Source: a virus. Taken from it: a DNA stretch of 64,000 bases. The position numbers were made by a program, and so were the translations under genes. This document shows positions 2,204-63,011 of the stretch, piece after piece. The stretch covers positions 1-64,000 of IMG/VR virus record IMGVR_UViG_3300044612_001963; one strand, written 5' to 3'. Each line of letters begins with the position of its first letter. Position 1 is the first letter of the stretch. The notes beneath the pieces are model-generated. The model searched no databases and was not told the DNA's origin. It was given only the letters and a program-made list of their open reading frames with translations.

Positions 2204-3561
2204 GGCGGCAGGGTGATGGTGGTAGTGTTGTAGGTGGGCTTGCTGATGGCGATGGAGTGGTTCATCTCTGTCACCAGATTGGAAAACATCTGCTCAGCCT
2301 GTTGCCGTTTGCGGCTGAGGTTTTCCATGATTCGCCGCTCCCCTTCCGTCAGGATGATGTCAACCTTGACGGCATGCTTTTGGCCGAACCGCCAGCATCG
2401 GCGGACCGACTGGTAGTACTGCTCAAAGCTGTGAGATGGGAAATACGTGATGTGGTTGCAGTGTTGGAAGTTGAGGCCCCATGCGCCGATCTTGGGCTTA
2501 GTGATCAGCACCCTGGCGCGACCTTCTGCAAAGTCCACCAGCCTTGACTCCTTCACATCATCCCGATCAGATCCAGAGACCTGAATTGAGTCGGGGACTA
2601 GCTGCTGCAACAGGTTTCCCTCCTCGTTCAGGTGGCACCACACCAGAGCGGGTTTGCCCGTAGTGGCGACCATGTCCGCGACCTGTTCGCAGCGCTCCTG
2701 AACGGTGCGCTTCTTCTCTGCCCGCTGCTCCCGTAGGTCGGTGGCAGGCATGGCAAACAGCATCCCCTCCGGCACCGTGCTGGTTTCGATCAGGTGATCG
2801 ATCTCATTCAGTGGCGGCAGGATGAAGCGGCCATCGTCAAAGCCAAGGTCTGAGGGCTTGCGGCAGGCCCTGGCCCAGCTGGTGACCCATCTCCAGAACG
2901 GCTGCTCAGCGTGCCCCTTAAAGCGCCATTTAGGAGCCTCTCCGTACATCCGCCGGCTAGTCAGGTTGTTCTGGTCGTTCTTGAAGAACCGCGCCAGCAT
3001 GTCCATGTGGCCCATGTAGCCGAGGGCCTCAGAGCTGGTGCCCAGCTCAATGAAGTCATTGGGCGCGGCGGTGGCGGTGGCCAGCAGCCGGTAGGGCACC
3101 TTGCGCATGAAGTCGGTGATCTCGTTACGGCGTGCCCCGTCAAACGACTTGAGGATGCTGGATTCATCGCAGACAACACCGCCGAAGTCGGCGGGGTTGA
3201 ATGCTGACAGCCGTTCATAGTTCGTGATCACGATCCGCCCCATCACGCTGCCATCGCTGGAGCGGTGAGCCTCAATGCCGAACTTTTCACCCTCGCGGAT
3301 GGTCTGCGCGGCGACGGCCAGCGGGGTCAGGATCAGCACCGGGCGGCCGGTGTGACGCGCCACGTTTTCAGCCCATGTGAGCTGCATGGCGGTTTTGCCC
3401 AGGCCGCAGTCCGCAAAGATTGCAGCGCGGCCCTTGCGGACAGCCCACTCGACTAGGGCTTGCTGGAAGTCAAACAGCTGCGGCGGCATGAACACTGGAT
3501 CGAAGCCGTGGTCGGCGCCGGTGTGGAGCTTGCGGTCTAGGAACTCGGCGTAGGTGGTCAT
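2194..3561 (-). CDS. SNF2-like superfamily 2 helicase/ATPase
   Basis: 455 residues with Walker A DCGLGKT (51-57), motif II DESS (132-135, in place of DEAH), motif III TATAAPND (162-169) and a C-terminal motif VI QSVRRCWRFGQ. This matches phage SNF2-family helicases that translocate on duplex DNA. It sits directly upstream of and overlaps the DNA methyltransferase, and the pair is encoded with SSB and a RecA-like ATPase, so a role in replication or recombination, or remodelling together with the methylase, is likely. ATG at 3561 overlaps the previous stop by 4 bases. Confidence 0.88.
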   Translation of the reverse strand: MTTYAEFLDRKLHTGADHGFDPVFMPPQLFDFQQALVEWAVRKGRAAIFADCGLGKTAMQLTWAENVARHTGRPVLILTPLAVAAQTIREGEKFGIEAHRSSDGSVMGRIVITNYERLSAFNPADFGGVVCDESSILKSFDGARRNEITDFMRKVPYRLLATATAAPNDFIELGTSSEALGYMGHMDMLARFFKNDQNNLTSRRMYGEAPKWRFKGHAEQPFWRWVTSWARACRKPSDLGFDDGRFILPPLNEIDHLIETSTVPEGMLFAMPATDLREQRAEKKRTVQERCEQVADMVATTGKPALVWCHLNEEGNLLQQLVPDSIQVSGSDRDDVKESRLVDFAEGRARVLITKPKIGAWGLNFQHCNHITYFPSHSFEQYYQSVRRCWRFGQKHAVKVDIILTEGERRIMENLSRKRQQAEQMFSNLVTEMNHSIAISKPTYNTTTITLPPWL

Positions 3562-3773
3562 CGCAGATCCTCCCGCAGCATCCGCGCTGCGTCGTGCGCC
3601 GACAGCCGGCCCTCATTGCGCTGGTGCATCACCAGCAGCTCAGCGGCCAGATGCTCGATCACGGCAGCCACGCCACGGCGGCGGGCGGAGGCGTCGGGCC
3701 AGGCCTGCAGTGCATCGTTGAAGGCCTCTTCATAGGCCACGGTGCAGCGGCCTAGCAGGGTGTTGTCAGGCAT
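3558..3773 (-). CDS. hypothetical small helical protein
   Basis: 71 residues (MPDNTLLGRCTVAYEEAF...), largely alpha-helical, with an Arg-rich stretch (ASARRRGVAAVIEHLAAELL). No family recognised. ATG at 3773 overlaps the preceding stop as TGATG; a GTG three bases upstream (3776) is an alternative start. Its stop overlaps the SNF2 gene start, so translation is probably coupled. Confidence 0.6.
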   Translation of the reverse strand: MPDNTLLGRCTVAYEEAFNDALQAWPDASARRRGVAAVIEHLAAELLVMHQRNEGRLSAHDAARMLREDLR

Positions 3774-3898
3774 CACTCCCCCTCCCCCACCAACCGCTCA
3801 CACAATGCCCACCACAGCGACGTGGCCAGGGCGGCGGTGCCGACAATGATCAGCACGGCGATGCTTTCGACCATGCCGGCGAGGATGGAGAGGGTCAC
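3773..3898 (-). CDS. small single-span membrane protein (41 aa)
   Basis: GTG at 3898 overlaps the upstream stop (GTGA). The 41-residue product has one hydrophobic segment, roughly residues 4-31 (ILAGMVESIAVLIIVGTAAL...), ending in an acidic tail (LVGEGE). It lies in a tightly packed operon with 4-5 base overlaps on both sides, which supports it being real despite its size. Function unknown. Confidence 0.5.
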   Translation of the reverse strand: MTLSILAGMVESIAVLIIVGTAALATSLWWALCERLVGEGE

Positions 3899-4182
3899 TG
3901 GGATACCTCCGCATCGGCCGGTGGTTTCATGGCCTGGATTCGGCCGTGCTCGTTTTGTGCACGCTCGAGCCGGCTACGGGCGGCGTCCAGTTCGAGCTCA
4001 GCCTTGGCCAGCATCGCGGCGTGGGCATCGGCCCAGGTTTCGTGGTAACTGGCCCAGCTGCCTGATCGGGATTCGCGGCGGCCGTTGCGCTCAGCAGGCC
4101 ACACGAAACCGGCTGTGACCTTGGTGCAGGGGACGGGCTTGATTTCGCCCCACGAGAGGCACCACATCGTGATGGTGCTCAC
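3895..4182 (-). CDS. hypothetical protein
   Basis: 95 residues. The N-terminal half carries aromatic and Cys residues (MWCLSWGEIKPVPCTK, WASYHETWADAHAAM); the second half is a helical, Ala/Glu/Arg-rich coiled-coil-like segment (LAKAELELDAARSRLERAQ). No known family recognised. It overlaps both neighbours by 4 bases, so it belongs to the same polycistronic message as SSB. Confidence 0.6.
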   Translation of the reverse strand: MSTITMWCLSWGEIKPVPCTKVTAGFVWPAERNGRRESRSGSWASYHETWADAHAAMLAKAELELDAARSRLERAQNEHGRIQAMKPPADAEVSQ

Positions 4183-4457: not shown

Positions 4458-4460
4458 GGG

Positions 4461-4910: not shown

Positions 4911-4955
4911 GGTGGGTGTTGTGGTTGTTAAACAGCATCGCAGCAGGGCAGCCGA

Positions 4956-5999: not shown

Positions 6000-6025
6000 G
6001 GTGGTGTGTGGTGGTGGCTCCCCGT

Positions 6026-6064: not shown

Positions 6065-6069
6065 ATGCA

Positions 6070-7531: not shown

Positions 7532-7584
7532 TCGCTGCCGTTGCGATTGTGAAACGCCATAGTGCCACCAGAGAACACTTCTCG

Positions 7585-7611
7585 CCCCGCCCTGGTCCGG
7601 CGGGGTTTTTT
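7585..7611 (+). terminator. rho-independent terminator upstream of lysis cassette
   Basis: CCCCGCC (7585-7591), a 7-base loop, GGCGGGG (7599-7605) and six T residues (7606-7611). On the plus strand it lies just before the lysis genes, so it would shield them from read-through antisense to the early operon. Confidence 0.8.
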
Positions 7612-7655
7612 CTTGCAGGCCGGAAAACTCAGGTAGCCCGCCTGCAGCTGAATCG

Positions 7656-9243: not shown

Positions 9244-9279
9244 CCCGACAGGAAACCTACCGGTAGAGGCTCGCTGCCC

Positions 9280-15161: not shown

Positions 15162-15467
15162 ATGTTTCAAATCTTGCCCCCCGGCCAAGTGCCTCAAGCC
15201 ATTGCCAAGCAGGCAAAGCCCGAGTACCAGATCCCCGCCCTGCCCTTTGACTCCATCCCTCCTGGTGGGGCGATCAAAATCCCTTTTGATCGGTTCCCCG
15301 ACTCAATCCCCGCACTGAAGCGCATTCATGGCGCACTTCGCGTCAGGGCATGCAGAGCATCCACACGCTTTGGCGTCCGCTTTTCTGTGCATCGAACCTC
15401 CGACGGCTTCTACATCACCCGCCCTGACTACCCCGGCAAACTGCAGCAACAGCCACAGTCCTGGTGA
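15162..15467 (+). CDS. hypothetical protein
   Basis: 101 residues from ATG 15162 (MFQILPPGQVPQAIAKQ). A Pro-rich N-terminus is followed by a basic segment (RIHGALRVRACRASTRFGVRF) and a beta-rich end (HRTSDGFYITRPDYPG). The stop overlaps the phosphoesterase start (GTGA). A DNA-binding role near the origin is conceivable, but no family is recognised. Confidence 0.6.
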   Translation: MFQILPPGQVPQAIAKQAKPEYQIPALPFDSIPPGGAIKIPFDRFPDSIPALKRIHGALRVRACRASTRFGVRFSVHRTSDGFYITRPDYPGKLQQQPQSW

Positions 15468-16392: not shown

Positions 16393-16851
16393 GTGCCAGC
16401 TGGCAGGCCTACTTCCCTCACCCCCGCCATGATCCAAGTGGCTGCGGAAGTCGCTGCTAAGTGCCCCTCCTATCGCGCCATTGCCCGCTCCATCGGCGTT
16501 CACCATTGCACTATCCGTGATTGGCTCGACAAGGGTGAAGATCCTGGCTCCCCAGAGTTGTTCCGCAGATTTTCCGAATCCATCCATGAAGCGCTGCTAA
16601 CGGCTGAAAAAAACCTCACCGAAAAGATCACTTCCGGTGAGCCTAAAGACGCTGCATGGATGCTTACTCATTCGCCATTCTTCCGCGAGGAATGGTCAGA
16701 TGCTGCAGCGGAGCGCCGCGCTGAGCGCCGCACCATGTCCACTGTGGTGGATGCCATCGCCGCAGCAGGGCTCCCCGCCGAGCAAGAACGCACCGTCCTG
16801 TTGCAGCTTCAGGCACGCGGGCTAAGCGGCAGGACCGATGCCAACCCTTGA
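16393..16851 (+). CDS. terS: terminase small subunit
   Basis: 152 residues from GTG 16393. The N-terminal HTH (AAEVAAKCPSYRAIARSIGVHHCTIRDWLDKG, residues about 16-47) recognises the packaging site; a helical middle and a polar tail follow. The HTH-plus-helices architecture and the 14-base overlap with the large terminase gene make the assignment secure. Confidence 0.85.
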   Translation: MPAGRPTSLTPAMIQVAAEVAAKCPSYRAIARSIGVHHCTIRDWLDKGEDPGSPELFRRFSESIHEALLTAEKNLTEKITSGEPKDAAWMLTHSPFFREEWSDAAAERRAERRTMSTVVDAIAAAGLPAEQERTVLLQLQARGLSGRTDANP

Positions 16852-18424
16852 CGTAGCAGCCCGCATGGCCCAGCTGGATCTGGACCAGCGAGCCACCTCC
16901 GTCACTCCACCCTCTGCCCCCTACACCCGCTCCTTCGGCGACTACATCGCCGCTGTCTTCCCCAGCTTTGCCTTCACCCGTCACACCAACCGCCTGATCG
17001 CCATCGCGCAGCGTGTTGCTGATGGTGAACTACCACGGCTGATGGTTGAACTGCCGCCACGGCACTTCAAGTCCACCATCTTCAGCCGGTTCCTGCCTGG
17101 TTACTTCCTCCGCCGCTATCCCGATCGCACCTGGGGCCAGGGCGCCAACACCCAAACCCTCGCCGCTGAGTTCGGCGAAGCTGCCCGCGATTACTACCTC
17201 GCCTCTGGTGGCACGCTGCACCCCTCCAGCACCGGCAAGGATCGATGGAAGACTGCCGGCGGCCTCGGTGGGTTCTGGGCCGCAGGCGTCGGCAAAGGAA
17301 CCGGCCTGCCAGCTGATTTCCTAAACGTGGACGACCCAATTAAAGGCCGCGAGGAAGCCGAATCCGCTGCCTACCGCCGCCAGCTCTACAACTGGTGGTC
17401 AACCGTTCTGAACACCCGCGAAGAACCGGGTGGCATCAAGCTCATCACCCACACCCGCTGGGCAGAGGCCGACCTGATCGGCTGGCTGCTGCAGCAGGTG
17501 GAGCAGCTGGAACGTGACGGCGACGGCGACGCGGCTGAGCCCTGGCACGTCATCAGCCTGCCGATGATCGCTGAGCCGGTGATCAAACCCCTGCCGACCC
17601 TGGTCACCCGCGAGCCAGACGACCGCGAGCCTGGCCAGGCACTGGACCCGTCGAGATACGACGAGGAATGGGCCCGCCGTAAACGGCTCAACACCCCTAT
17701 CCGCGACTGGGAGGCGCTGTATCAGCAGCGGCCAACACCCGGCAAGGGAACCATCTTCAGTGCGGAGATGTTCCGCTACTACGGCACCGCCGAGCGCCCC
17801 GGCCAGCCGGATGATGCCACCCTCCCTGGTCGATTCGTGCGGCGCCTGGCATCGATCGACTGCACGTTCAAAGACTCAGCCGGCACGGACATGGTGGCCT
17901 TCACCCTCTGGGGCCAGGACAGCGCCGGCCTGTGGCTGCTGGACATGATCAACCAACGCCTCGATTTCGCCGGCACGATGGACACCATTGCCGCGCTGTG
18001 GCCCACCTGGGGGTTCGGTGAGCTGCTGGTGGAAGACAAGGCCAACGGCCCGGCTGTGATCAGCACCCTGAAACGTGCCGCTGCAGGGTTCAGCGTGATC
18101 GCTGTGAACCCCATTGGCGGGAAGATCGCCCGCGCCAATGCTGCTACGCCTGAGTTCAACCAGGGCCGCGTCTGGCTGCCGCGTAACCACCCGTTGCTGT
18201 CGGTGTTGGTGTCGCAGTTGGTCAGGTTCCCTGGCGATACGTTCGATGACCTCGTGGACTCCACCACGCAGGCAGTAAACTACGTGCAGGGCACCGGCCC
18301 GATGCGCGTTTCAACAGTCCACTACGGCCACGGGTCTGGTGCACCGCCACCAGATCCGTTCGCTGATGCCGACACCTTCAAACCCAGGCAGCGCCGGCTC
18401 TCCACGACGCCGGGTTTCAGGTGA
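16838..18424 (+). CDS. terL: terminase large subunit
   Basis: 528 residues. The packaging ATPase has a Walker A variant PPRHFKST (73-80) and acidic LNVDDP near residue 165 as Walker B. The C-terminal RNase H-like nuclease starts at ASIDCTFKDSAGTDMVAF near residue 340, with further acidic sites in LLVEDKANG and DTFDDLVDS. It cuts and pumps DNA into proheads through the portal encoded at 24600. ATG 16838 overlaps terS by 14 bases. Confidence 0.92.
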   Translation: MPTLDVAARMAQLDLDQRATSVTPPSAPYTRSFGDYIAAVFPSFAFTRHTNRLIAIAQRVADGELPRLMVELPPRHFKSTIFSRFLPGYFLRRYPDRTWGQGANTQTLAAEFGEAARDYYLASGGTLHPSSTGKDRWKTAGGLGGFWAAGVGKGTGLPADFLNVDDPIKGREEAESAAYRRQLYNWWSTVLNTREEPGGIKLITHTRWAEADLIGWLLQQVEQLERDGDGDAAEPWHVISLPMIAEPVIKPLPTLVTREPDDREPGQALDPSRYDEEWARRKRLNTPIRDWEALYQQRPTPGKGTIFSAEMFRYYGTAERPGQPDDATLPGRFVRRLASIDCTFKDSAGTDMVAFTLWGQDSAGLWLLDMINQRLDFAGTMDTIAALWPTWGFGELLVEDKANGPAVISTLKRAAAGFSVIAVNPIGGKIARANAATPEFNQGRVWLPRNHPLLSVLVSQLVRFPGDTFDDLVDSTTQAVNYVQGTGPMRVSTVHYGHGSGAPPPDPFADADTFKPRQRRLSTTPGFR

Positions 18425-18626: not shown

Positions 18627-18970
18627 TGATCACCGCCGCCGAGGTCCTCGAGCGCCACCCGCAAGGCTGCTGGGTGTTCGATGCCACCGGCCGCCGGCTG
18701 AAGCATGTCTTCGCCTGCAACCCTGACACCGGCGAGGTGATCATGGTGGACTGGCGGCCGACGCTCTGGCAGCGGCTCACCACCACGCTGCGCAGCAGAC
18801 GCCATCAGCGCTGGCGGTGGCTGGCGTTCAGGTCACACGTCCCCACCCGCCACGGGTTCTGGCCCGCGCCGCTGCACATCGTGCCGAAGCCTGTCTGGCC
18901 TGGTGGTCCCATGCCCGATGGTCAGGCCTGCATCGTTGGCAACGGTGAGCGCGAGGCCTTCCACCCATGA
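18626..18970 (+). CDS. hypothetical basic protein
   Basis: 114 residues from ATG 18626 (GTG 18623 is an alternative). N-terminal ITAAEVLERHPQGCWVFDATGRRLK, a basic/aromatic centre (SRRHQRWRWLAFR) and a Pro-rich end. It overlaps the sigma factor start by 4 bases. Function unknown. Confidence 0.6.
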   Translation: MITAAEVLERHPQGCWVFDATGRRLKHVFACNPDTGEVIMVDWRPTLWQRLTTTLRSRRHQRWRWLAFRSHVPTRHGFWPAPLHIVPKPVWPGGPMPDGQACIVGNGEREAFHP

Positions 18971-19758
18971 CCGCAACCACCTTCCCCACCCCCACCGCGA
19001 TCAGCGAGGATCTGATCACCGCCAACCTCGGCCTGGCACGGCAGTCCGCCTGGCGGTTCCATCGCAAGACCGGCCAGCCCTATGACGAGCTGGAGGCGAT
19101 TGCCTACGTCGGCCTGATCCGTGGCTGCCGGCGGTATGACCCCGACCGCCTCAACCCAGGTTCAGGCAAGCCCTACGCCTTGTCCACCATCGTGGTGCCG
19201 TTCATCCAAGGGGAGATCCTGCACTGGTTCCGCGATCGTGGGTTCGCCATGAAGTTTCCAACAAAGTGGCGGGAGAAGTGGGGCAAGGTGCAGCGCCTGA
19301 TGAGTGATCCCGACCTGACCGCTCAGGATGTTGCCGAGCGCTCAGGCCTCACCATCGCTGATCTCACAGAGATGCTTGGCGCGATGACCGGCACCGCCAA
19401 CCTTGACGATATCCATGGCGCTGATGGTTACGACGTACCTGAGCTGGAGCTGCCCCGCATTGATCCGCTCAAGGATCTGGTCAACACCGCATGGGGGAAC
19501 ATTCATTCTGCCGATCGCGGGCTGCTGCTGAAGTGGTGGGCCAACCCCAGACGTTTGGCATACCCTGCCGGGCCGATGGAGCAGTTCCACCGCCGGGTGA
19601 AGGCAATCCTGCAGGGCCGGCGGCTGTCGGAGGTGCTGCAGCTGGGTCTACAGATCACCGTGCCGCTGGTCACGCCTGAGCCGAAGGCACCTAGGCGGAA
19701 GCGGTCGCGGAAGGCGCTGGAGGCAGCGGCGCTGCAGCTGGGGCTCATCGTCGCCTGA
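18967..19758 (+). CDS. phage sigma-70 family RNA polymerase sigma factor
   Basis: 263 residues. Region 2 is clear: DELEAIAYVGLIRGCRRYDP (about 38-57), YALSTIVVPFIQGEILHWFRDR (melting and -10 recognition helices), then a region 3-like HTH (LTAQDVAERSGLTIADLTEML, about 117-138). The C-terminus is basic (KAPRRKRSRKALEA). Region 4 is weak, so it may read a -10-centred promoter. It lies just before the accessory and structural genes and is a candidate switch to late transcription; its promoter sequence is unknown. Confidence 0.78.
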   Translation: MTATTFPTPTAISEDLITANLGLARQSAWRFHRKTGQPYDELEAIAYVGLIRGCRRYDPDRLNPGSGKPYALSTIVVPFIQGEILHWFRDRGFAMKFPTKWREKWGKVQRLMSDPDLTAQDVAERSGLTIADLTEMLGAMTGTANLDDIHGADGYDVPELELPRIDPLKDLVNTAWGNIHSADRGLLLKWWANPRRLAYPAGPMEQFHRRVKAILQGRRLSEVLQLGLQITVPLVTPEPKAPRRKRSRKALEAAALQLGLIVA

Positions 19759-23385: not shown

Positions 23386-23445
23386 ACGCCCCAACCACAC
23401 ACCATCGGAAACCTGACCCAGCAACACCCGCCAGGCCTCTCAACG

Positions 23446-23493
23446 ATGCCCAAACCGGCGGGTCACTCTTTTACCACCACCACTACGCCATGA
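23446..23493 (+). CDS. possible 15-residue leader peptide
   Basis: ATG 23446 opens a 15-codon frame ending in a run of Thr codons and a stop that overlaps the next ATG (ATGA at 23490). A GGAAACCT element lies 31 bases upstream of this ATG. It may couple translation to the next gene; it could also be chance. Confidence 0.25.
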   Translation: MPKPAGHSFTTTTTP

Positions 23494-23696: not shown

Positions 23697-23901
23697 GCAG
23701 GCTGCCTGCACTTGCGGGCGGATCAGGATCGGCACTCAGCTATCCGATCACTTGGCTTGGCGATCTACCTGCTCAGTTCATGGCTCTGCATCGCGTTGGT
23801 ACAACTCGCCTGAGCAGGTAGATCGCCGAGAGCAGCAGCGCGTCAGGCTGAGAGCCCTGCAGATGGAGGCTGCCGCTGCGCGGGCCAGGCTGGCAACCTA
23901 A
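23689..23901 (+). CDS. hypothetical Cys/His-containing small protein
   Basis: 70 residues from ATG 23689: ACTCGRIRIGTQLSDHLAWRSTCSVHGS carries a C-x-C and C-x2-H arrangement compatible with a zinc site, then a helical basic tail (REQQRVRLRALQMEAAAARARL). Function unknown. Confidence 0.5.
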   Translation: MPEQAACTCGRIRIGTQLSDHLAWRSTCSVHGSASRWYNSPEQVDRREQQRVRLRALQMEAAAARARLAT

Positions 23902-23910
23902 CACGACAGA

Positions 23911-23939
23911 GCCCAGGCCCCTGCTCCGCACGCCTGGGC
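23911..23939 (+). terminator. stem-loop at the end of the early plus operon
   Basis: GCCCAGGC (23911-23918) pairs perfectly with GCCTGGGC (23932-23939) across a 13-base loop, just after the stop at 23901. There is no strong T-run, so termination is only probable. Confidence 0.45.
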
Positions 23940-24565: not shown

Positions 24566-24599
24566 ACCGGAAAACTCCCATGACGGCCAGGCGTGGGCA

Positions 24600-26054: not shown

Positions 26055-26088
26055 CCGGAAACCTAAGCCGTCCCAGACACCACCCACC

Positions 26089-30299: not shown

Positions 30300-30339
30300 C
30301 CGCTACGGAAACCTCAAGCACCACGCACGCCGCTACACC

Positions 30340-30528
30340 ATGGCCCGCGAATGGGACACGCCTACACGGGCGCCATGGAATCCGCTGATCAAACAATCCC
30401 TCGACGCGATCGACCGTCACGAACACCTCTACCGCTCCACTGGTGACGGCCGCCATGCACGCCTCGCACACCAGCTCAGGCAGTACGTGGCCGAGCTGAA
30501 GGATTGGATCCTGTCTCAGGAAACCTAG
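30340..30528 (+). CDS. hypothetical small protein
   Basis: 62 residues, helical (LIKQSLDAIDRHEHLYRST, HARLAHQLRQYVAELKDWIL). A GGAAACCT element at 30307-30314 lies 25 bases before ATG. Its last codons (GAA ACC TAG) themselves form the element used by the next gene. Confidence 0.55.
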   Translation: MAREWDTPTRAPWNPLIKQSLDAIDRHEHLYRSTGDGRHARLAHQLRQYVAELKDWILSQET

Positions 30529-31038: not shown

Positions 31039-31082
31039 GTTCAGACAGGAAAGCTAGATCAGCTACCTGATCTCCCTCCGCA

Positions 31083-32559: not shown

Positions 32560-32594
32560 GCCGGAAACCTACGGTACCCCCACCCGGCGCAGTC

Positions 32595-33329
32595 GTGCCC
32601 CAGCTTCCATTCGTTGTCGCGCCCAAGCGCGAAACGCGCACCATTTCAGCCACCGTCAACGGTGAGGTGTGCTCCCTTGAGTTCCCTGTTTTCGGCTCGC
32701 TGCTGGCTGGTGAAGAGATCGCCATCAGGGAACACGAATACCAGGCAGTCGTTACCCGTGAGTCGAGCAGGCTGGCTGATGCCATCCTTTACAGCGACTC
32801 CAACGAGGTCTGCTTCGAGGGCGAGGCTCAGCGACTAGCAATCCGTATCCTCTCAACTCGCCTGGGGATACCAGTGCCGCTGGAGCCCACAGAGCAGCGG
32901 ATCATGCTGCAGCAATGTGACCTGATCGCTGAGATGACCATCACCCTCGGCAAGGCACACCGCCAGCAGGTCTTGCGCACCGTTACCGCTGCCATCGCCC
33001 ACCGGCTGCCCGGTTGCAAAGCCTGGACCGAAGCTGATTCATCCGAGCTGCCCGAGCCGCTCCAAACCGCGATCTACAACTTCATCGGCGATGAACAGAA
33101 CGGTCACCAGCCCGCCAAATCCCCTGAAGAACTGATCGAAGGGATGGTTGAAACGCTGGGAAAGCTCGCGCCTCAGGACAACTCAGCCCCGCCCCAACCG
33201 ATTGGGCCGCAGCATTCTGGCGATGCCGCAGACTCTGGCCCGCTGCTCCTGAGTTCAGCCGCGAACGATTCGCATCCCTCCCCGTCTCCTACATCACAGA
33301 AGCGATCGAGGAAGGTGAGCGCTGGTTGA
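32595..33329 (+). CDS. tail assembly chaperone, G-type product
   Basis: 244 residues from GTG 32595. N-terminal beta domain (ETRTISATVNGEVCSLEFPVFGSLLAGEE), helical centre, then a Pro/Ser-rich tail produced only in the zero frame. The heptamer GGGAAAG at 33158-33164 permits a -1 shift into the overlapping frame, giving a longer GT-type protein, exactly as in phage lambda. GGAAACCT at 32563-32570 is 24 bases upstream of the start. The next large gene group is the tail module with the tape measure. Confidence 0.82.
   Translation: MPQLPFVVAPKRETRTISATVNGEVCSLEFPVFGSLLAGEEIAIREHEYQAVVTRESSRLADAILYSDSNEVCFEGEAQRLAIRILSTRLGIPVPLEPTEQRIMLQQCDLIAEMTITLGKAHRQQVLRTVTAAIAHRLPGCKAWTEADSSELPEPLQTAIYNFIGDEQNGHQPAKSPEELIEGMVETLGKLAPQDNSAPPQPIGPQHSGDAADSGPLLLSSAANDSHPSPSPTSQKRSRKVSAG
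33158..33164 (+). other. -1 programmed frameshift site GGGAAAG
   Basis: In the zero frame the codons read G GGA AAG; slipping by -1 gives GGG AAA and continues GCT. Lambda uses the same heptamer for G/GT. The alternative frame is open from here to 33832. Confidence 0.85.
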
Positions 33330-33971: not shown

Positions 33972-34067
33972 AGGGCGGGTTGCCGCTAGGTTTCCGCGCC
34001 ATCCTTAAGCCGTTAGCACGGCATACCGGGTAGTGGACCGCTGAAAGGGAAGCGATCACGCATCCCC

Positions 34068-35128: not shown

Positions 35129-35169
35129 GGCCTGGCTGGCGTTTGGTGAGTTTGCCGGAAAACTGAGCC

Positions 35170-38500: not shown

Positions 38501-40544
38501 GGCTGCTGTAAAAGCCCGCGCCGAAGCCGAAGCGCAGCTCAACAAGATCATCGCAGAAGCACCAGTTCGCAACCTAGATGCGCAGCTGGCGGTAGGCCAG
38601 CAACTGGTAGGCCTTAGCAAAGCACTTGCTGATCAGGAACAGTCACGGTTCGCGGTAGTGAAGGCTGGCCTGGAGTTCGAGCTATCTAAGGCCCAAGAGC
38701 GTGGTGCATCCGAAAGCCAGATCGGGGAGATCAAGTCCCGCATTCAAGAACAAGACCGGCAATCCCTAGAGGCGCGGTATCAGGCGCTGATCCAACAGCA
38801 GCAACTGGAAGCCAAACTGCTGGAGCTGAGCCAGCAGAAGGCACGCACCGAAGCAGACCTAAGTGTGTTTGAAGCACGCAAGGCATTACTCCAGGCAGAA
38901 GTTGAACTGAAGAAACTATCAGCAGATGCCAGCACCGAAGAGCGAGCTAAAGCTGAAGCAATCGTTGAACTGCAGCGTGCTGCGCTTGGTGTCAATGAGG
39001 AACGTTTAGGCGTCCTCGCCCAGACCCAACCCCTAGAGCGGCAGATTGCTGCAGCAACAGCTGAAACCGCACGCAACGGACTGCAAGCGCAAGCTGCTCA
39101 AGCTGGGTTCAACATTGAAGCCGATGGATCTGTTACCAAAACTGCAGCCCTCGCTGCTGAAACAAGCAAGGTCAAGCAAGCCGCCGAAGCCCGCAAGAAA
39201 GTAGAACAAGAGATCGGTGAAGTCATCAAGCAATCGAGCCTGCGCCTGGCAACGGAACAGCTATCGGTTGCAGAGAAGCTGGTTAGCCTCTCACGTGCAC
39301 TTGCTGCAGAAGAACAGAGCCGGTTTGATCTAGTACGCAGCAACCTAGAGTATGAACTGCAAAAGGCTGAAGAACGCGGCGCATCCGAATCTGAAATCGG
39401 TTCAATTAAAGAACGGATCCAGAAAGTAGACCGCGCCGCTGCCGAAGCTCGCTACAAAGCACTCCTGCAGCAACAGCAGCTGGAAGCAAAGATGCTGGAG
39501 ATCGCCCAGCGCAAACAGGTGCTTGAGGCGAATGTTGAGTTCAGGAAACAGCAACTCGCTCTACTTGAGGCGCAGAAGAAGCTGCAGGAAGCCATCGCCG
39601 CTGGTGATCAGGGTGCCATCGCACTCGCACGCTCCCAGGTGGGCCTCCAGCAACTGATGCTCAGCGTGCGTGGTGAGCAGCTGGGCCTGCTCGCTCAAAC
39701 CCAGCCCCTCGAAGCGCAGATCCTTGCCGCGCAGCAGAGTGCCGCGATCAACGCAGAGCGGGCCCGTGCGGCACAGAACGGCTACCAGCTTGCCGCTGCA
39801 CAGTCGGCCGTCAACCTGGGCAACGTCGCCAGCATCGCCGGTGGGCTGAACAACATCGCCGCAGGCTATGCCCAGAACCTGGGCGCTGCAGCGACACAGG
39901 CCGGCCAGCTCGAAGGTGCGGTGAGTGACGCGCAATCCCCAGCTGATGGCATCGCCGATGCGTTCACTACCACGGGCGATCGTGCGCCAGCTGCAGCGCA
40001 AGGCGCTCGGGACTTCGCCGCCTGGCTGTCATCTGCCAAGACCTTCGCCGAACGCATCGCGGGCCTGTCACTGGACACGCAGATGGCCACCGTCGCCACA
40101 CGCACCGCGCAGGCTGCCGGCGCTGCCAAGGTGTTCTACGAATGGCTCGAACGCGCCTCACGCCTCCCCGGCTCCCGCTGGACGGGTGGCCCGGTGGAAG
40201 CTGGTGAGCAGTATCGCGTGAACGAACTGGGCCAGGAAGCACTCCTCTCTGGTGGGCGCCTCTCCCTCATCAATGCCGCACCCAACTCCATCTGGCGTGC
40301 ACCAACCAACGGCACCGTGATCCCCGCAGGCATCACCTCAAGGCTGCAAGATCAAGGTGCCCTGCCATCACGCCCCGGCACCACGCCAATCATGACCAGT
40401 GGCAGCAGCAATGCCGCCCTCGCCGTCGAAGTCGGAAAACTGCGGCAGGAGGTTGGCGAGTTGGCGCGGAAAAATTGGAACGTCAACGTTGCCATGAAGA
40501 CCGGACCAACCGGCAGCCAGGTGATCCGCCAGATGATGAGGTGA
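35595..40544 (+). CDS. tail tape measure protein
   Basis: 1649 residues from GTG 35595, the longest gene. Residues 62-348 are five coiled-coil repeats of alternating 55 and 59 residues; residues about 380-600 form the conserved tape-measure domain (AESAEVRIKALGDQFGE, MEQLPPVSQAIAKELGVTVGQVKKLGSEGK); hydrophobic segments near 620-650 may insert in the host membrane. Residues about 990-1400 hold a second, duplicated coiled-coil block. Tail length scales with this protein, so a tail of roughly 250 nm is expected from the usual relation. Confidence 0.92.
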   Translation: MSDFQFKVGGDFSELLRGFQQLETRAKTAGDNVGKGIGDGIQGFSSKSLAALNQELNRLQQRQLKVAVDSSAFEKAGAQIKEVQALISAVQRQQVLIQVDDRSVTALQTKLADLQSRQVKVDVDSQEFIELQRQINATEKELQEISQRKVLIDADANSFLAVTAKLRNELNGLQERQLKIDVDSQEFVALGKEIDRVEGELQALERKRTAVTIDASSIEALQAKLTDLQTRQTKVSVDSQEFADLQVQINNVQRDLAEVEQNKILINVDGNSITALTTKLKAELTALEQRRVTIDVDSQEFIEVSQQIDRVEGELQALERKKLLINADPSSIIALRSRLGELQGELEKTQIGSQRFRELQGEINKTETELREATQSAGGLRGVIQQLGPAIAAIGIGTGLVAFTQGAFDAATAAESAEVRIKALGDQFGEADKVQQLVAKSAQQLNLSNTEAADGFLQLYGALRPVGIGLDDVATVFTAVNATAKNFGLSAGNVNAAVLQLSQGLAAGALQGDELRSIMEQLPPVSQAIAKELGVTVGQVKKLGSEGKITSEVVINAIKGLNDTELGKLDQTLNTTQEKLKAQGVAWNELSVTVGSAFVQASLPAIELLTGLTQGLTSVARAAADAPLALKALAGVLLGLPAAYIAARLALIAFNSELIGGQIKAAIAGIQQLGLLLRTQFIADLATAKGAWVAFSTSIQTGALQQQIVALGAKFGPLALAIGAVTAAVVAFNKSTADSQSIAKAAADGQDELTAALTAAGVETSKLTTLGGPFARGLEDAATAGEALLAPLRAIPGIGPLVADAIKGIWQTLKVVIPGLKGATEGIIALINAYKGAVANANATQGLEQAAIALTNLQSQAGLAENAAGALFAELKKAGGKPNTAQTEQIEKLVTALEKAKAQGIALAEQYDLLAAAARNSGNDEYAEELERLAEAARNGIPLTDVRIQQLQSLIPETQKATQATKEQEAAVKARAEAEAQLNKIIAEAPVRNLDAQLAVGQQLVGLSKALADQEQSRFAVVKAGLEFELSKAQERGASESQIGEIKSRIQEQDRQSLEARYQALIQQQQLEAKLLELSQQKARTEADLSVFEARKALLQAEVELKKLSADASTEERAKAEAIVELQRAALGVNEERLGVLAQTQPLERQIAAATAETARNGLQAQAAQAGFNIEADGSVTKTAALAAETSKVKQAAEARKKVEQEIGEVIKQSSLRLATEQLSVAEKLVSLSRALAAEEQSRFDLVRSNLEYELQKAEERGASESEIGSIKERIQKVDRAAAEARYKALLQQQQLEAKMLEIAQRKQVLEANVEFRKQQLALLEAQKKLQEAIAAGDQGAIALARSQVGLQQLMLSVRGEQLGLLAQTQPLEAQILAAQQSAAINAERARAAQNGYQLAAAQSAVNLGNVASIAGGLNNIAAGYAQNLGAAATQAGQLEGAVSDAQSPADGIADAFTTTGDRAPAAAQGARDFAAWLSSAKTFAERIAGLSLDTQMATVATRTAQAAGAAKVFYEWLERASRLPGSRWTGGPVEAGEQYRVNELGQEALLSGGRLSLINAAPNSIWRAPTNGTVIPAGITSRLQDQGALPSRPGTTPIMTSGSSNAALAVEVGKLRQEVGELARKNWNVNVAMKTGPTGSQVIRQMMR
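35778..36638 (+). repeat. five tandem coiled-coil repeats in the tape measure
   Basis: Unit starts (RQLKVAVDSS, RQVKVDVDSQ, RQLKIDVDSQ, RQTKVSVDSQ, RRVTIDVDSQ) are spaced 55, 59, 55 and 59 residues, and the last unit is 59. The 4-residue difference alternates, so the duplicated unit was probably a pair of 114 residues. Confidence 0.85.
38561..39800 (+). repeat. two long direct repeats in the tape measure C-terminal half
   Basis: About 38561-39120 and 39237-39800 encode homologous blocks: LSKALADQEQSRF/LSRALAAEEQSRF, ERGASESQIG/ERGASESEIG, ARYQALIQQQQLEAK/ARYKALLQQQQLEAK and LAQTQPLE in both. Period is about 676 bases. Confidence 0.8.
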
Positions 40545-44713: not shown

Positions 44714-44746
44714 CCGGAAAACTAAGGCCACAGCCCGCCGAGCACC

Positions 44747-45180: not shown

Positions 45181-45582
45181 ATGAGCTTCGTTATCACCCA
45201 AGGCGAGCTTGAGTTCCAGTCAGGCCTGATCCTCAACGGTCAGACCTACAGGGTGTTCCTCGCCACCAGGGGCAGCCTGACCGTTGCCAGTACCCTCAGC
45301 GCATGGGAAGCAGCCAAGCTGGCATCAGCGAACGGTTATGCCGATGTGACCGGCACCGTCGGCAACGGCGTCTACAACGCCACCAATGGCCGGGTGGAAT
45401 CGCCCGTGATCACCGGCCAGTTTGGCCCTGCAACCGGCGCTGGGTTCACCTTCGATGCGATGATCATCAAGATCGGCACCACCAGGACCAGACCCTATGC
45501 TGTGCGGTTGTATGACGTGCCGCAGGTGCTCGCTGCTGGTCAATCCCGTGCGTTCAATATCACGCTCGGCATCAAGCCATGA
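45181..45582 (+). CDS. hypothetical structural protein
   Basis: 133 residues, beta-rich (GQTYRVFLATRGSLTVAST, GNGVYNATNGRVESPVITG, FDAMIIKIGTTRTRPYAVRL), the same general fold pattern as the preceding gene. It overlaps the next gene by 4 bases. Probably part of the fibre assembly. Confidence 0.55.
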   Translation: MSFVITQGELEFQSGLILNGQTYRVFLATRGSLTVASTLSAWEAAKLASANGYADVTGTVGNGVYNATNGRVESPVITGQFGPATGAGFTFDAMIIKIGTTRTRPYAVRLYDVPQVLAAGQSRAFNITLGIKP

Positions 45583-47030: not shown

Positions 47031-47155
47031 CCCAACCACAACACGAACCCCAGCCAATCACGAACGAAACCCCAGTTCAGCATCTGGTGGAAGCCGTCCA
47101 AATCCGCATCGCCACGCAACGCCTCAAGCTGGCCGGAAAACTCAAACGCACCTAG
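47027..47155 (+). CDS. hypothetical small protein (42 aa)
   Basis: ATG 47027 overlaps the previous stop (ATGA). Pro/Gln-rich start then a helix (HLVEAVQIRIATQRLKLAGKLKRT). The basic helix may interact with nucleic acid or the scaffold. Ends 12 bases before the scaffold gene. Confidence 0.45.
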   Translation: MTQPQHEPQPITNETPVQHLVEAVQIRIATQRLKLAGKLKRT

Positions 47156-47167
47156 CCGTGATGGCAC

Positions 47168-47962
47168 ATGCGTTTCCGATTCACCCCCACCCGGCCCGAA
47201 CTCACCCTCTGGCCGTCCATTGATCCTGACCCCGCTACAGACCAGCAAGGCGGCGGCACTGATACCACCGACAACAGCGACACCAGCGGCCAGGGCGAAA
47301 CCGACGCTGATCGCCTCAAGCGTGCCCTGGAGGCAGAACGCAAACTCAACCGGCAGAACGCTGCACGTGCCGCACAGCTTGAAAACCAGCTGAAAGAGGT
47401 TGGCCAAGTCAACCCGCAGCTGCTGGCCGAAGCACAGGCCAAAGCCGAAGCGGCCGAACGGCAACGCCAGCTACTGGAGCAGCAGATCAACACCCGCCTT
47501 GCTGACGCAGAGCGGAAGTACCAGGAACAGCTCTCACGGCTCACCTCCGAGCTGCAGATCAAAGCATCCGCTGCCGAACGTGAAGCCCTGCGGGTCAAAG
47601 CTGAACGCGAGTTCCTCGCCGCCAAAGGCCTCACCGACGCATCGGAAATCGACGGCCGCACGCCGTTTGACTACATCTGGCAGCTGTTCGGCGGCCAGTA
47701 CGCCGAGGACAAGAACGGGCTCTACATCGTTGACGCAGACGGCAGCCCTGCACTCGACGCTGAAACCGGCAAGCGGATCACCCTACGCGAGCACTACAAC
47801 AAGCTCCGCAAGGATCCCGTCCACGGCATGCACTTCCAGCCGGAATACGGCTCTGGTTCTGGTGGCCGCGCCGGTCGTGATGGCCGCATTAACACCACCG
47901 CCGATCTCTCCAAGGTGCCAACAGGGCAGCTGTTTAGCGAGGCATTTGGTAAGCGCCGGTAA
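47168..47962 (+). CDS. capsid scaffold protein
   Basis: 264 residues. A long charged coiled-coil region (DADRLKRALEAERKLNRQNA...AERQRQLLEQQINTRLADAER, about 40-140) is characteristic of scaffolds. The C-terminal part contains an acidic-basic mix with LFGGQY and GLYIVDADGSPALD. It lies immediately before the major capsid gene. Confidence 0.7.
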   Translation: MRFRFTPTRPELTLWPSIDPDPATDQQGGGTDTTDNSDTSGQGETDADRLKRALEAERKLNRQNAARAAQLENQLKEVGQVNPQLLAEAQAKAEAAERQRQLLEQQINTRLADAERKYQEQLSRLTSELQIKASAAEREALRVKAEREFLAAKGLTDASEIDGRTPFDYIWQLFGGQYAEDKNGLYIVDADGSPALDAETGKRITLREHYNKLRKDPVHGMHFQPEYGSGSGGRAGRDGRINTTADLSKVPTGQLFSEAFGKRR

Positions 47963-49526: not shown

Positions 49527-49676
49527 ATGGCAAGTTTCGCCGTGCCCTATGGGGTGAGCGAGGAAGAGATGGCCAAGGCGATGGGTACCGTGGTGGCTGA
49601 ACCGCAGCCTGAACCCGAGCCGGAGCCGAAGGCTGAGCCTGCACCGCGCCGTCGTGGTGTGAAGGCGGAAAACTGA
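49527..49676 (+). CDS. hypothetical small Pro/Glu-rich protein (49 aa)
   Basis: ATG 49527, product begins MASFAVPYGVSEEEMAKAM, has an alternating Pro-Glu stretch and a basic end (APRRRGVKAEN). GAGGTGATCTG upstream gives a possible ribosome binding site. The 3' end contributes a GGAAAACT element (49667-49674) for the next gene. Confidence 0.5.
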   Translation: MASFAVPYGVSEEEMAKAMGTVVAEPQPEPEPEPKAEPAPRRRGVKAEN

Positions 49677-52142: not shown

Positions 52143-52180
52143 GAGCCCGGTAAACTATAAGCAACCACCACGATCATCCA

Positions 52181-55009: not shown

Positions 55010-55182
55010 TGATTACCTGGATTCGCGATCGACTGCCCACCGCCGCTGATGCCGACCTGCACGGCATGGTGCGCTGGAATCCGATGCTCCCCGGCATGCT
55101 CATCCCCTGGCATGAAGTCCGCACCGGTGAAGTCTGGTCGCGTTCTGCCGCATGGCAGGAAAACTCAGAGCATGGACACTGA
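55009..55182 (+). CDS. hypothetical small protein (57 aa)
   Basis: ATG 55009 overlaps the depolymerase stop (TGATG). The product (MITWIRDRLPTAADADLHGM, WNPMLPGMLIPWHEVRTGEVW) is Trp-rich. It overlaps the next gene by 11 bases. Function unknown. Confidence 0.5.
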   Translation: MITWIRDRLPTAADADLHGMVRWNPMLPGMLIPWHEVRTGEVWSRSAAWQENSEHGH

Positions 55183-55835: not shown

Positions 55836-55865
55836 CGCCACGCAGCGCCTGCTTCAGGTTTCCGG

Positions 55866-56084: not shown

Positions 56085-56277
56085 CACCAGGCAGCGGCTG
56101 GGGTAGTTTGCCGGTATGCACCGGATATGCACGCCCCCTGAGATCGGCTGCTACCACTGGCGAGTCACTACGACATCCGGGCCGTGGATGAGGATCTGTA
56201 TCTGGCGGTGCTGGCGTGTCGTAGAGCGGAGAGTGACTGCGCGGCAGGCGATCTGAGCACAGCAGCAGATCAGCAGC

Positions 56278-57409: not shown

Positions 57410-57418
57410 TCGGGGCTC

Positions 57419-59784: not shown

Positions 59785-59794
59785 ACGCCCAGCA

Positions 59795-59956: not shown

Positions 59957-59959
59957 GGG

Positions 59960-60292: not shown

Positions 60293-60328
60293 AGTTGGGT
60301 TGCGGTTGGACAAACGAAACGGTCAGGG

Positions 60329-60880: not shown

Positions 60881-60883
60881 GGC

Positions 60884-61078
60884 TCAGAAGGGAATACTTG
60901 GATCGACTGGATCAATGCCGCAGTTGATGCAGGCGTTGACGGCTTGCTGAAACTTCCAACGTGCCCAGTTCTCGGCGTCCATCGCCTCCATGGCAGCGAT
61001 GCGTGCTTTGACGTAGGCGTCGCGGGATTGATGCAGCTGGGTCAGCAGCTCTTGCTCGGGGTGTGCGGTGGTGGTCAT
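60884..61078 (-). CDS. hypothetical small helical protein
   Basis: 64 residues (EQELLTQLHQSRDAYVKARI, AENWARWKFQQAVNAC) ending in an acidic/Pro tail (GIDPVDPSIPF) that vaguely recalls SSB tips. It sits 3 bases before Gp157. Function unknown. Confidence 0.5.
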   Translation of the reverse strand: MTTTAHPEQELLTQLHQSRDAYVKARIAAMEAMDAENWARWKFQQAVNACINCGIDPVDPSIPF

Positions 61079-61212
61079 CGCGCCCCCATCAGCGAGTTCC
61101 GCTCGGATGCGCTGAGCGACGGGTGGTCGTACCAGTCGGGGTAGCTGTCGCTGTCGTCGTCGTCGCCGGGATCATCGATTAGATCCAGGTCGTCCAGGTC
61201 TGCGGTGGTCAT
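61075..61212 (-). CDS. small acidic protein, first gene of the right early operon
   Basis: 45 residues from ATG 61212, selected because the -10 box lies at 61238-61243 (the longer frame starts in the promoter). Highly acidic (DLDDLDLIDDPGDDDDSDS). It could mimic DNA or buffer a basic partner. Confidence 0.5.
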   Translation of the reverse strand: MTTADLDDLDLIDDPGDDDDSDSYPDWYDHPSLSASERNSLMGAR

Positions 61213-61237
61213 AGCCGGTGGTGTGGTGGCTGTGTGA

Positions 61238-61266
61238 ATCATACCGTTGCGGTTGCGAATCTGCAA
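61238..61266 (-). promoter_or_regulatory. operator promoter of the right early operon
   Basis: On the minus strand TTGCAG (61261-61266), 17 bp, TATGAT (61238-61243). The spacer contains CGCAACCGCAACGG, matching the 6026 promoter. Leader: TTCACACAGCCACCACACCACC. Confidence 0.8.
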
Positions 61267-61499
61267 CGCCTTTTGCAGCTTGAGTGGTGCCGGAACGCTG
61301 AGCCGGTGGGTTGCCGGCCCCTGGAGCCCTTGTGGTAACAGGGGTTTTCCTTCTGATCCGACCGGTTACGATGGTTGAAGCAGTTGGGGGTGGTGCCCCG
61401 CTGCCGACACCGTGACCTCGTGTCCCGTGTGTGGTGGTTGGGGCCTCTCGGGGCCCCACGACCGCCGCGCCGGAAACCTCAGCCAGCAGCGCTGGCCTG
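61267..61499. other. intergenic region with hairpins
   Basis: No gene seen. CCCCTG (61318-61323) and CAGGGG (61339-61344) followed by TTTT form a possible plus-strand terminator, and GGGGCC/GGCCCC (about 61441-61456) forms a second hairpin. A GGAAACCT element (61472-61479) lies 20 bases before ATG 61500. Confidence 0.5.
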
Positions 61500-62384
61500 A
61501 TGGCAGTCACCATTTCGGGCAACAGGTTCCTGGTGGACGGGAAACCGCGCCGGCTGGCGGGCAACCACACGTGGGACGTGGTGCAGCCTGTGGCAGGAAA
61601 CCGCACGCCGATCGACCGGCTTACGGGGAACTTCACCCGCCTGTGGACAATCGAGACGCGGGCGTTCGTGAACTATCGGCCGCCGTTCGTTGGTGCTGAC
61701 CCTGGCCTGATCCGCGTCAAGGGCGGGCCGTGGAAGTCGGACCTGTCACTGAATCCCCGGTTCTACCGCCGAATGGAGCAGGCCGTTGCCGCCGCCGATC
61801 AAAGGGACATGGTGACTGGGGTGGTGCTGTTCGAGGGCTCGATTCCTGATCTGTTCCCGAGGGCTTGGGAGTTCCACCCGTTCAGGGGGCATGGGCCGAA
61901 AGATCACCACAGCGTGCACACGCAAGGGCCGTGGAACAAGCACCAGAAGGCGCACGTGCGGCGGATGGTGAAGACGCTGGAGCCGTACTCGAATGTGCTG
62001 TTCGAGGTGGGCAACGAATTAACGAAGCCCAGCACGGTGTGGTTCCAGAAGTGGGTTGTCGGGCTGGTGAAACGCCTCACCGACAAACCCGTAGGCGTTT
62101 CGTATGCCAGGGCCGTCAAGCCTGAAGGCGGCCAGCAGTGGATGCGCACCACCGGCGCCGATTGGATCGCCCCTGGTGGCCCTGCTCCTGTCGCCGGGTT
62201 CGGTGGGCCTCAGGTGCTCGATACCGACCACAGCTGGGCGCTGCGGTCGAACGTTCCAGGTCTGCAGGCTGCTGCCAGGGCTGGCCGGCCGATCTGGTTG
62301 ATGGATGGCATGCGCGGCACGATGCTAAGAAACATCGATAACCTTGGGCCGGATCGGGCGTTTATTTCATCGCTGGTGTCTTAG
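61500..62384 (+). CDS. GH5-like glycoside hydrolase (TIM barrel) accessory protein
   Basis: 294 residues. N-terminal FLVDGKPRRLAGNHTWDVV resembles the first strand of GH5/cellulase-like barrels; TRLWTIETRAF, VLFEVGNEL (acid/base Glu after Asn) and QVLDTDHSWAL follow in barrel order. At the usual nucleophile position IWLMDGM carries Asp rather than Glu, so activity is uncertain. It is alone on the plus strand among minus genes, which marks it as an inserted accessory gene, perhaps acting on host or competitor polysaccharide. Confidence 0.6.
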   Translation: MAVTISGNRFLVDGKPRRLAGNHTWDVVQPVAGNRTPIDRLTGNFTRLWTIETRAFVNYRPPFVGADPGLIRVKGGPWKSDLSLNPRFYRRMEQAVAAADQRDMVTGVVLFEGSIPDLFPRAWEFHPFRGHGPKDHHSVHTQGPWNKHQKAHVRRMVKTLEPYSNVLFEVGNELTKPSTVWFQKWVVGLVKRLTDKPVGVSYARAVKPEGGQQWMRTTGADWIAPGGPAPVAGFGGPQVLDTDHSWALRSNVPGLQAAARAGRPIWLMDGMRGTMLRNIDNLGPDRAFISSLVS

Positions 62385-62418
62385 TTGTCGGCGGCGGTGG
62401 GTGGGGTGGTGTGCCAGG

Positions 62419-62613
62419 TCATGGCATGGCGTGGCAGGAGATCCAGTCGGCCGCTGCGGTGGTGGTGTCACTGGAGTGTTCCAGCAGCACCAGGCACAGC
62501 TCACCAGCGACCTGCGCCGCGGTTTGGCGGCAGTTGTCGCATGGCTCGACGCAGCGCCTAAGCGTTGATATCGGGCAGGCGGCGAGGGCTAGGCGGTCGG
62601 GTGTGGTGGTCAT
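62419..62613 (-). CDS. hypothetical small Cys protein, paralogue of 259-537
   Basis: 64 residues (MTTTPDRLALAACPISTLRR, CVEPCDNC, VAGELCLVLLEHSSD). Shares the RL.LAACP and VAGEL..VL.E blocks with the protein at 259-537. GGAAACCT lies 5 bases before the ATG at 62613, within the end of the preceding gene. Confidence 0.6.
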   Translation of the reverse strand: MTTTPDRLALAACPISTLRRCVEPCDNCRQTAAQVAGELCLVLLEHSSDTTTAAADWISCHAMP

Positions 62614-63011
62614 GGCTCAGGTTTCCGCACTGCATCGATGCCTGCCTGCGCGATCTCGAACGGTGTGCCGTGGCTCCAGTAGCTGGGCACCAGGCCACCG
62701 GCTGCAGCCATGTCACGCCGGAACTGCTCGATCAGCCTCAGTTGCCGATCGGTGTACGGCTGAAGTTGTGGTTGTGCAATCGCACGTTTTCGCATTGCAT
62801 CCTCCATTGCCTGCTGCGCGATCATCGCCGCTGCAGCCCATCTCGCCGTATCCGGTGTCACGTCATGCCGCGTACGGTAGTGGCCAGGATCGGGGCAATG
62901 GATTAGCCGGAAGCTGCCTGCCTCCATCGCATCGTGATCGGCATCCCAGTGCCGGCCATTGCCCCACGGGATGTAACGCCTGCCCTGTTTGATGTAGAGC
63001 TGGTGGGTCAT
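62610..63011 (-). CDS. hypothetical protein
   Basis: 133 residues. N-terminal LYIKQGRRYIPWGNGRHWDA is a small beta motif; the remainder is helical (WAAAAMIAQQAMEDAMRKRA, DRQLRLIEQFRRDMAAAGG). It overlaps the neighbours by 4 bases. Function unknown. Confidence 0.6.
   Translation of the reverse strand: MTHQLYIKQGRRYIPWGNGRHWDADHDAMEAGSFRLIHCPDPGHYRTRHDVTPDTARWAAAAMIAQQAMEDAMRKRAIAQPQLQPYTDRQLRLIEQFRRDMAAAGGLVPSYWSHGTPFEIAQAGIDAVRKPEP

Follow-up and report, generated by a model that had tools for sequence, protein, structure and literature searches.

What is the function of a short sequence, GGAAAMCT, that recurs just before gene starts throughout the genome of a cyanobacterial virus? The question arises from a stretch of 64,000 nucleotides (nt), here called the window, which is nearly the whole of the 64,418-base IMG/VR virus record IMGVR_UViG_3300044612_001963 and has a GC content of 61.5%. 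Our analysis suggests that the motif forms the -10-like core of a late promoter consisting of a single element, which would be read by host RNA polymerase together with a phage SigF-like, putative group-3 sigma factor. Judged from sequence, we give this reading a probability of roughly 0.78.

The window portal protein is 37–40% identical to the portals of the Synechococcus phages S-CRES1-3 and S-CBS2 and the Prochlorococcus phage PSS2. PHROGs assignments in the window include terL, portal, scaffold, major head, tail, tape measure, fibre, primase, helicase, endolysin, and integrase. A nucleotide search of phage records with 20 kb of the window gave no match. The IMG/VR relatives used for comparison range from near-identical fragments to approximately 45–60% protein identity, and many of these contigs are fragments. 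The gene starts of environmental contigs are computed, and the gene calls were made without use of the motif. Together, the window and its relatives supplied 678 distinct start regions, which form the start set. The gap counts the nt that separate the motif T from the start codon.

Distribution and Spacing of the Motif

The window contains 19 exact matches to GGAAAMCT, compared with 2.01 ± 1.35 in dinucleotide shuffles, and no shuffle reached 19. The copies listed in the original prediction, which was made from the letters of the window, are all present at 0–4 bases from where it had put them, and its claim of enrichment over chance holds. The sites that precede a start codon, including variants, are as follows (aa, amino acids; ORF, open reading frame; PWM, position weight matrix).

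7622..7629, plus strand, GGAAAACT; gap 26 to ATG 7656 (85 aa, upstream of the endolysin); a terminator hairpin at 7584-7606 lies just upstream
9251..9258, plus strand, GGAAACCT; gap 21 to ATG 9280 (108-aa ORF)
15435..15442, plus strand, variant GGCAAACT; gap 21 to GTG 15464 (exonuclease-like); PWM score 18.0 in the window
24569..24576, plus strand, GGAAAACT; gap 23 to GTG 24600, portal gene
26057..26064, plus strand, GGAAACCT; gap 24 to ATG 26089
30307..30314, plus strand, GGAAACCT; gap 25 to ATG 30340
30519..30526, plus strand, GGAAACCT, short class; gap 5 to ATG 30532
31048..31055, plus strand, GGAAAGCT; gap 27 to ATG 31083
32563..32570, plus strand, GGAAACCT; gap 24 to GTG 32595
33988..33995, minus strand, GGAAACCT; gap 28 to GTG 33959 (95-aa minus-strand gene inside the plus-strand late region)
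35149..35156, minus strand, variant GGCAAACT, back to back with 35157 (AGTTTGCCGGAAAACT); gap 20 to the ATG of an uncertain 64-aa minus-strand ORF
35157..35164, plus strand, GGAAAACT, short class; gap 5 to ATG 35170
44716..44723, plus strand, GGAAAACT; gap 23 to GTG 44747
47135..47142, plus strand, GGAAAACT; gap 25 to ATG 47168, head scaffolding gene
49667..49674, plus strand, GGAAAACT; gap 22 to ATG 49697
52149..52156, plus strand, variant GGTAAACT; gap 24 to ATG 52181, tail fibre gene
55158..55165, plus strand, GGAAAACT, short class; gap 6 to ATG 55172
55856..55863, minus strand, GGAAACCT; gap 20 to ATG 55835
56105..56112, minus strand, variant GGCAAACT; gap 20 to ATG 56084; PWM score 16.4
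61472..61479, plus strand, GGAAACCT; gap 20 to ATG 61500 (294 aa)
62619..62626, minus strand, GGAAACCT, short class; gap 5 to ATG 62613

Position 6 of the motif is A, C or G, and the form with T (GGAAATCT) had no match near the 678 starts. Over these starts, the gaps of GGAAAVCT fall at 5–6 and 19–29 nt, with a peak of 22 matches each at 23 and 24 nt, and gaps of 7–18 nt are empty except for 2 matches at gap 12. The reversed pattern had no match within 60 nt on either side of the starts. Of the two spacing classes originally proposed, the short one (5–6 nt) stands, whereas the long one, given as 14–27 nt, measures 20–28 nt in the window. In the relatives, the enrichment per contig was several-fold to thirty-fold, far above the reversed control.

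Three matches had been placed inside genes. Two of them, 2612-2619 on the minus strand and 40434, are intragenic, and the third, 47135, lies 25 nt before the scaffold gene at 47168. Another intragenic copy, GGAAAGCT at 33159, was absent from the original list. The copies at 40434 and 33159 are conserved across relatives, which probably follows from the coding sequence and not from function.

Form of the Motif and Candidate Transcription Start

The motif logo was built from 77 nonredundant long-class sites, covering -50 to +35. The consensus is CC-GGAAA-V-CT-R-A-R-S-C-R, followed by two A/C-rich positions. The logo showed no second element, either upstream (-50 to -3) or in the spacer that leads to the start codon. 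A relaxed site collection adds GGCAACCT (18/122) and rarer variants. Index 13, six bases past the motif T, is a purine in 87% of the sites and completes a pyrimidine–purine step in 69%. Because such a step is the usual look of a transcription start, index 13 is a candidate transcription start site (TSS). In the short class, it coincides with the A of the ATG. All 13 short-class genes start with ATG, compared with 55/77 in the long class (P 0.03).

The original prediction had judged a promoter role unlikely, on the grounds that no -10 box follows the motif. This objection falls away if the motif, which is -10-like with A at -11 and T at -7, is itself the -10 element. A short-class transcript would then start at the AUG, and no room for a downstream -10 would be needed.

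Conservation at Orthologous Gene Boundaries

Conservation at orthologous gene boundaries in relatives, which the original prediction had expected, was borne out. A site is present upstream of the orthologues of the portal gene in 24/24 cases, 26089 in 7/7, 30340 in 3/3, 30532 in 15/16, 32595 in 14/15, 33959 (minus strand) in 14/14, 35170 in 10/10, 44747 in 9/9, and the scaffold gene in 6/6. The spacing class can change at one and the same gene: the orthologues of 30532 have gaps of 5 or 19–32 nt, and those of 35170 have gaps of 5, 23 or 28 nt. The N-terminus is kept in the orthologues of both genes, with gap 5 in some phages and 19–28 in others. The gene at 45181 has no site in the window and has one in 7/13 relatives.

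The motif is carried by the portal, scaffold, fibre, and other late-region genes and by the lysis region, in agreement with the view of a directional start-associated element used by late and accessory genes. Throughout the relatives, it is missing from the major capsid (0/13), the major tail (0/13), and 40549 (0/16). Since the major capsid and major tail genes have no site, the motif is not in control of every late gene.

Copies at a Non-Coding RNA, at Terminators and in Divergent Pairs

Two copies in the window have no start codon, and one of them stands before a predicted RNA.

23407..23414, plus strand, GGAAACCT without a start codon; ends 12 nt before the abiF RNA
23427..23463, plus strand, abiF RNA (RF03085); 56.4 bits against a gathering threshold of 37, E 7.6e-8
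23892..23899, plus strand, variant GGCAACCT without a start codon; followed by a hairpin CCCAGGC...GCCTGGG

The copy at 23407 had been noted as an exception without an adjacent gene start; it is indeed start-less, and the abiF RNA would account for its position. Because this copy precedes a non-coding RNA, a translation signal would have no role there. In contig L013, the same abiF RNA is preceded by the variant GGCAACCT, and the sequence further upstream is divergent. One other cyanophage, S-CREM1, is reported to carry an abiF RNA (PMC9964418). An Abi_2 protein was not found in the record that carries this near-perfect RF03085 match, and a possible role of the RNA is that of a decoy, or a mimic of the antitoxin, which the phage directs at an AbiF toxin of the host. 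Beside it, at 23892-23938, the start-less copy is followed by an invariant stem, CCCAGGC...GCCTGGG, with a variable loop, which also occurs in contigs L037 (3157) and L078 (2406 and 2470). This stem is a candidate for a new small non-coding RNA.

Several sites stand directly after terminators. The sites of the S-CRES3 genes 6273, 10403, 35675, and 39670 begin 4–8 nt past the T-run of a strong terminator, and the distance is 10 nt at window 7622, 11 nt at PSS2 15118, and 6 nt at S-CRES1 47034. The association between sites and terminators is significant in S-CRES3 only (P 0.002). At such places the upstream RNA ends before the motif and there is no room for an ordinary promoter, which favours a role in transcription over one in translation.

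The tight motif pairs comprise 19 distinct divergent pairs and no convergent pair. The divergent pairs are inverted repeats with 0–1 or 8–9 bp between the halves, and 18 of the 19 are flanked on each side by a start codon with an open frame, at gaps close to those usually seen. The copy at the non-coding RNA, the copies after terminators, the divergent pairs, and the co-occurrence with a sigma factor described below fit transcription better than translation. A further point on this side is that the host-like Cyanobium genome sampled does not have the motif enriched before its genes.

The Motif in Distant Cyanosiphoviruses

An unbiased gapped-6-mer search upstream of starts recovered GG.AA.CT in the window, GG.A..CTA in S-CBS2, S-CRES1, and S-CRES3, and GGAA..CT in PSS2. 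Plain k-mer counts in the distant phages missed the motif, whereas the gapped words recovered it. In these phages the words lie mostly at gaps of 18–29 nt; in S-CBS2, 13/28 copies are upstream of starts (log10 P approximately -11.5). The counts at gaps of 17–30 nt were 15 in the window, 13 in S-CBS2, 11 in S-CRES1, 12 in S-CRES3, and 12 in PSS2, against permuted-pattern means of 0.7–1.2, and 0/59 permutations reached the observed counts. With the published starts of PSS2, 23/32 upstream matches are at gaps of 20–29 nt. Phages without a SigF-like sigma were not enriched at gaps of 17–30 nt (S-CBS4 0, S-LBS1 2, S-CBS3 1). The independent phage groups in this comparison are few with the sigma and three without it.

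In promoter register, the skeleton common to the clades is G-14, G-13, A-11, C-8, and T-7. A-11 and T-7 are the two bases flipped out by sigma region 2 in known open complexes.

A Phage Sigma Factor as the Candidate Reader

The window encodes a candidate protein for reading the motif.

18967..19758, plus strand, phage sigma factor, 263 aa, SigF-like, putative group 3; phrog_36098 RNA polymerase sigma factor, E 1.2e-27

Two small ORFs separate the gene from terL (16838-18424), which lies upstream of it. The variant site at 15435..15442 is a candidate promoter of this terL–sigma region. A sigma homologue directly follows terL in S-CBS2, S-CRES1, S-CRES3, and PSS2, and many IMG/VR relatives carry the sigma too. 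S-LBS1 and S-CBS3 have only an RpoD-like sigma elsewhere in the genome, and no such sigma gene is annotated in the part of the S-CBS4 record covered. The SigF-like sigma is probably the reader of the motif.

Pfam searches of 7 sigma homologues found Sigma70_r2 as the sole sigma domain (weak in the window protein). Region 4 was not detected in these 7 proteins and was detected in the control RpoD-like sigmas of S-LBS1 and S-CBS3. A sigma without a detectable region 4 suits a promoter without a -35. The window sigma matched the SigB and SpoIIAB-bound sigma structures 8x6g_H and 1l0o_C weakly (E 0.07–0.09). The PSS2 homologue is 34% identical to it over 157 aa, and the isolate-phage sigmas are approximately 28% identical over the aligned length. 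At approximately 28% identity, the common promoter skeleton is not simply recent common sequence. The PSS2 sigma (ORF003) was published as group 3 in 2009, with its target left open (PMC2784084). No report of the GGAAAVCT motif was found in the open-access literature searched.

Proposed Mechanism

We propose that the promoter core is CC-GGAAA-V-CT-RARSC-R in the window clade and GG-N-A-N-N-CT across cyanosiphoviruses, with no -35. Host RNA polymerase carrying the SigF-like sigma would read this core, and transcription would begin at the conserved pyrimidine–purine step approximately 6 nt past T(-7). The short-class mRNAs would be leaderless or nearly so, beginning at the AUG or within a base or two of it, and the long-class mRNAs would have leaders of approximately 14–24 nt. 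The empty zone of 7–18 nt would correspond to leaders of approximately 2–13 nt, which may be too short to work. This scheme of two leader classes with an empty zone between them is the least certain part of the proposal. A preference of leaderless mRNAs for AUG exists in E. coli and in some other species but is not universal (PMC9031893).

Several observations weigh against the proposal. The candidate TSS at 6 nt past T(-7) is slightly nearer than the usual 7. The major capsid and major tail genes lack a site in all relatives examined. In PSS2, a site precedes 10/22 virion genes detected by mass spectrometry versus 13/56 others, which is not significant (P 0.096). Contig L116 encodes a sigma that is 58% identical and shows no motif enrichment in the 20 kb covered. 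Foldseek aligns most of the low-confidence sigma model (pLDDT 67) to full sigma factors, so the C-terminal part of the protein could be a degenerate region 4. The link between sigma and motif is a co-occurrence within related phages, and other genes could co-occur with the motif as well.

We see an even chance that the proposal extends to a lineage of cyanobacterial siphoviruses. This lineage would have a dispersed late regulon with a GC-rich, -10-only GG-N-A-N-N-CT promoter and a group-3-type sigma without region 4; orthologues would alternate between leaderless mRNAs and leaders of approximately 14–24 nt, and selection would exclude intermediates. If correct, the proposal supplies a target sequence for the group-3 cyanophage sigma recognised in 2009 without a known target. 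It also names promoters, with their predicted transcription starts, in the cultured phages PSS2, S-CBS2, S-CRES1, and S-CRES3, and provides natural cases in which one gene can be compared in leadered and leaderless form.

Alternative Explanations

The motif may instead be bound by a different transcription factor of phage or host, an activator or repressor at late promoters, without being the sigma contact. The inverted repeats of the divergent pairs are what such a factor might bind, and the window encodes several helix-turn-helix proteins and an AbrB-like protein. However, most sites are single half-sites in one fixed orientation, spaced from the inferred TSS as a -10 element would be. Among the positions that the clades have in common are A(-11) and T(-7), and the logo contains no other promoter core. 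We consider this explanation unlikely.

A role in translation initiation, in which the motif in the mRNA leader is bound by the ribosome or a phage factor as supposed for the start-associated sequences (SAS) of cluster K phages, is less likely still. The tight coupling to start codons and the two spacing classes would suit it, and the motif is nearly absent from genes that overlap their upstream neighbor and are translationally coupled (3/180). SAS behave alike at the genome level (PMC3203893). However, the abiF non-coding RNA has a copy of its own, several others lie 4–11 nt past a terminator with no space for a promoter that would place the motif in RNA, and divergent copies stand back to back at 0–1 bp. 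Enrichment is found only in phages with the SigF-like sigma, and the spacers show little extra folding. GGAAA is also not a match to the anti-Shine-Dalgarno sequence.

The least probable explanation is a host promoter element borrowed by the phage and read by a Cyanobium sigma factor: group-3 sigmas occur in cyanobacteria and some S-CRES sites read TGGTATACT, near the extended -10 of sigma-70, but the motif is not enriched in the Cyanobium genome (1 versus a mean of 2.0 in 200 kb; 5 versus 5 in the control for CGGAAAVCTNAG genome-wide), and the GC-rich GGAAACCT and GGCATCCT are poor sigma-70 elements.

Other candidates were tried and rejected. One was a long-class hairpin joining motif and start codon: the spacers were only 0.5 kcal/mol more stable than shuffled ones, and 42/77 were below the shuffled mean. 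A Shine-Dalgarno-like word occurs in 7/77 long-class leaders versus 161/560 other genes. An extracytoplasmic function (ECF)-type -35 with a downstream -10 was dropped, the logo having no second element. PF00940 was searched for a single-subunit phage RNA polymerase and was unmatched, but the positive control was unmatched too.

Other Features of the Window

The major tail (34068) and major capsid (48064) genes have long upstream gaps with conserved leader sequence despite the missing motif. A hairpin with the core CGTGAYG and swapped stem pairs (GGCGTGAYGCC / GCCGTGATGGC) is present in the scaffold and major capsid leaders at window 47157, 48004, and 48024. It also occurs in the distant PSS2 (83382 and 84233), where it precedes these two genes by approximately 19 and 98 nt. 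The hairpin is a possible RNA operator of the capsid genes.

Another class of leader contains A/C-rich CACCAC repeats up to approximately 25 nt from the start, mostly at motif-less genes; examples in the window are 5999 (minus strand), 20266, 23490, 28456, and 52181. In PSS2 (L094), GTCGAGAG recurs approximately 10–12 nt before starts as a separate start-associated word. The 73 mostly unassigned window proteins (577-63860) include matches to Tad2-like (Thoeris anti-defence), dCTP deaminase, DNA methylase, KilA-N, and AbrB-like domains.

Comparison with Known Systems

The T4 late promoter is a single TATAAATA -10 element without a -35. The T4 late system (gp55, with gp33 and gp45) resembles the window system in a phage sigma of which only domain 2 is recognisable and in simple, numerous, dispersed promoters (PMC2988020). 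The two differ in that the window element is GC-rich (GGAAAVCT / GG-N-A-N-N-CT) and the sigma appears to belong to the SigF/group-3 type; the searches made did not identify it as a gp55 homologue. By analogy, the window system may work like a T4 late promoter; no common descent is claimed.

The nearest systems are those of PSS2, S-CBS2, S-CRES1, and S-CRES3, whose group-3 sigmas share the family, the place after terL, the promoter skeleton, and the distance. The core motif differs slightly between the clades, and the main text on PSS2 does not identify the motif (PMC2784084).

The cluster K SAS and extended SAS (ESAS) are likewise short, directional, dispersed, and placed just before starts, and SAS favour ATG (80/93 sites) (PMC3203893). 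Unlike the window motif, SAS are 13-bp GGGATAGGAGCCC sequences with a Shine-Dalgarno core, have a single short spacing of 3–7 bp before starts, and belong to non-structural genes. The window motif has another sequence and most of its copies at 19–29 nt, and it is not a cluster K SAS. The original suggestion that it works like these elements is disfavoured by the abiF RNA copy, the terminators, the divergent pairs, and the co-occurrence with the sigma. The function of cluster K SAS is itself still unproven (PMC12699233). If our proposal is right, phage repeats described as start-associated can act as -10-only promoters that give little or no leader, and the same possibility arises for the unexplained cluster K elements.

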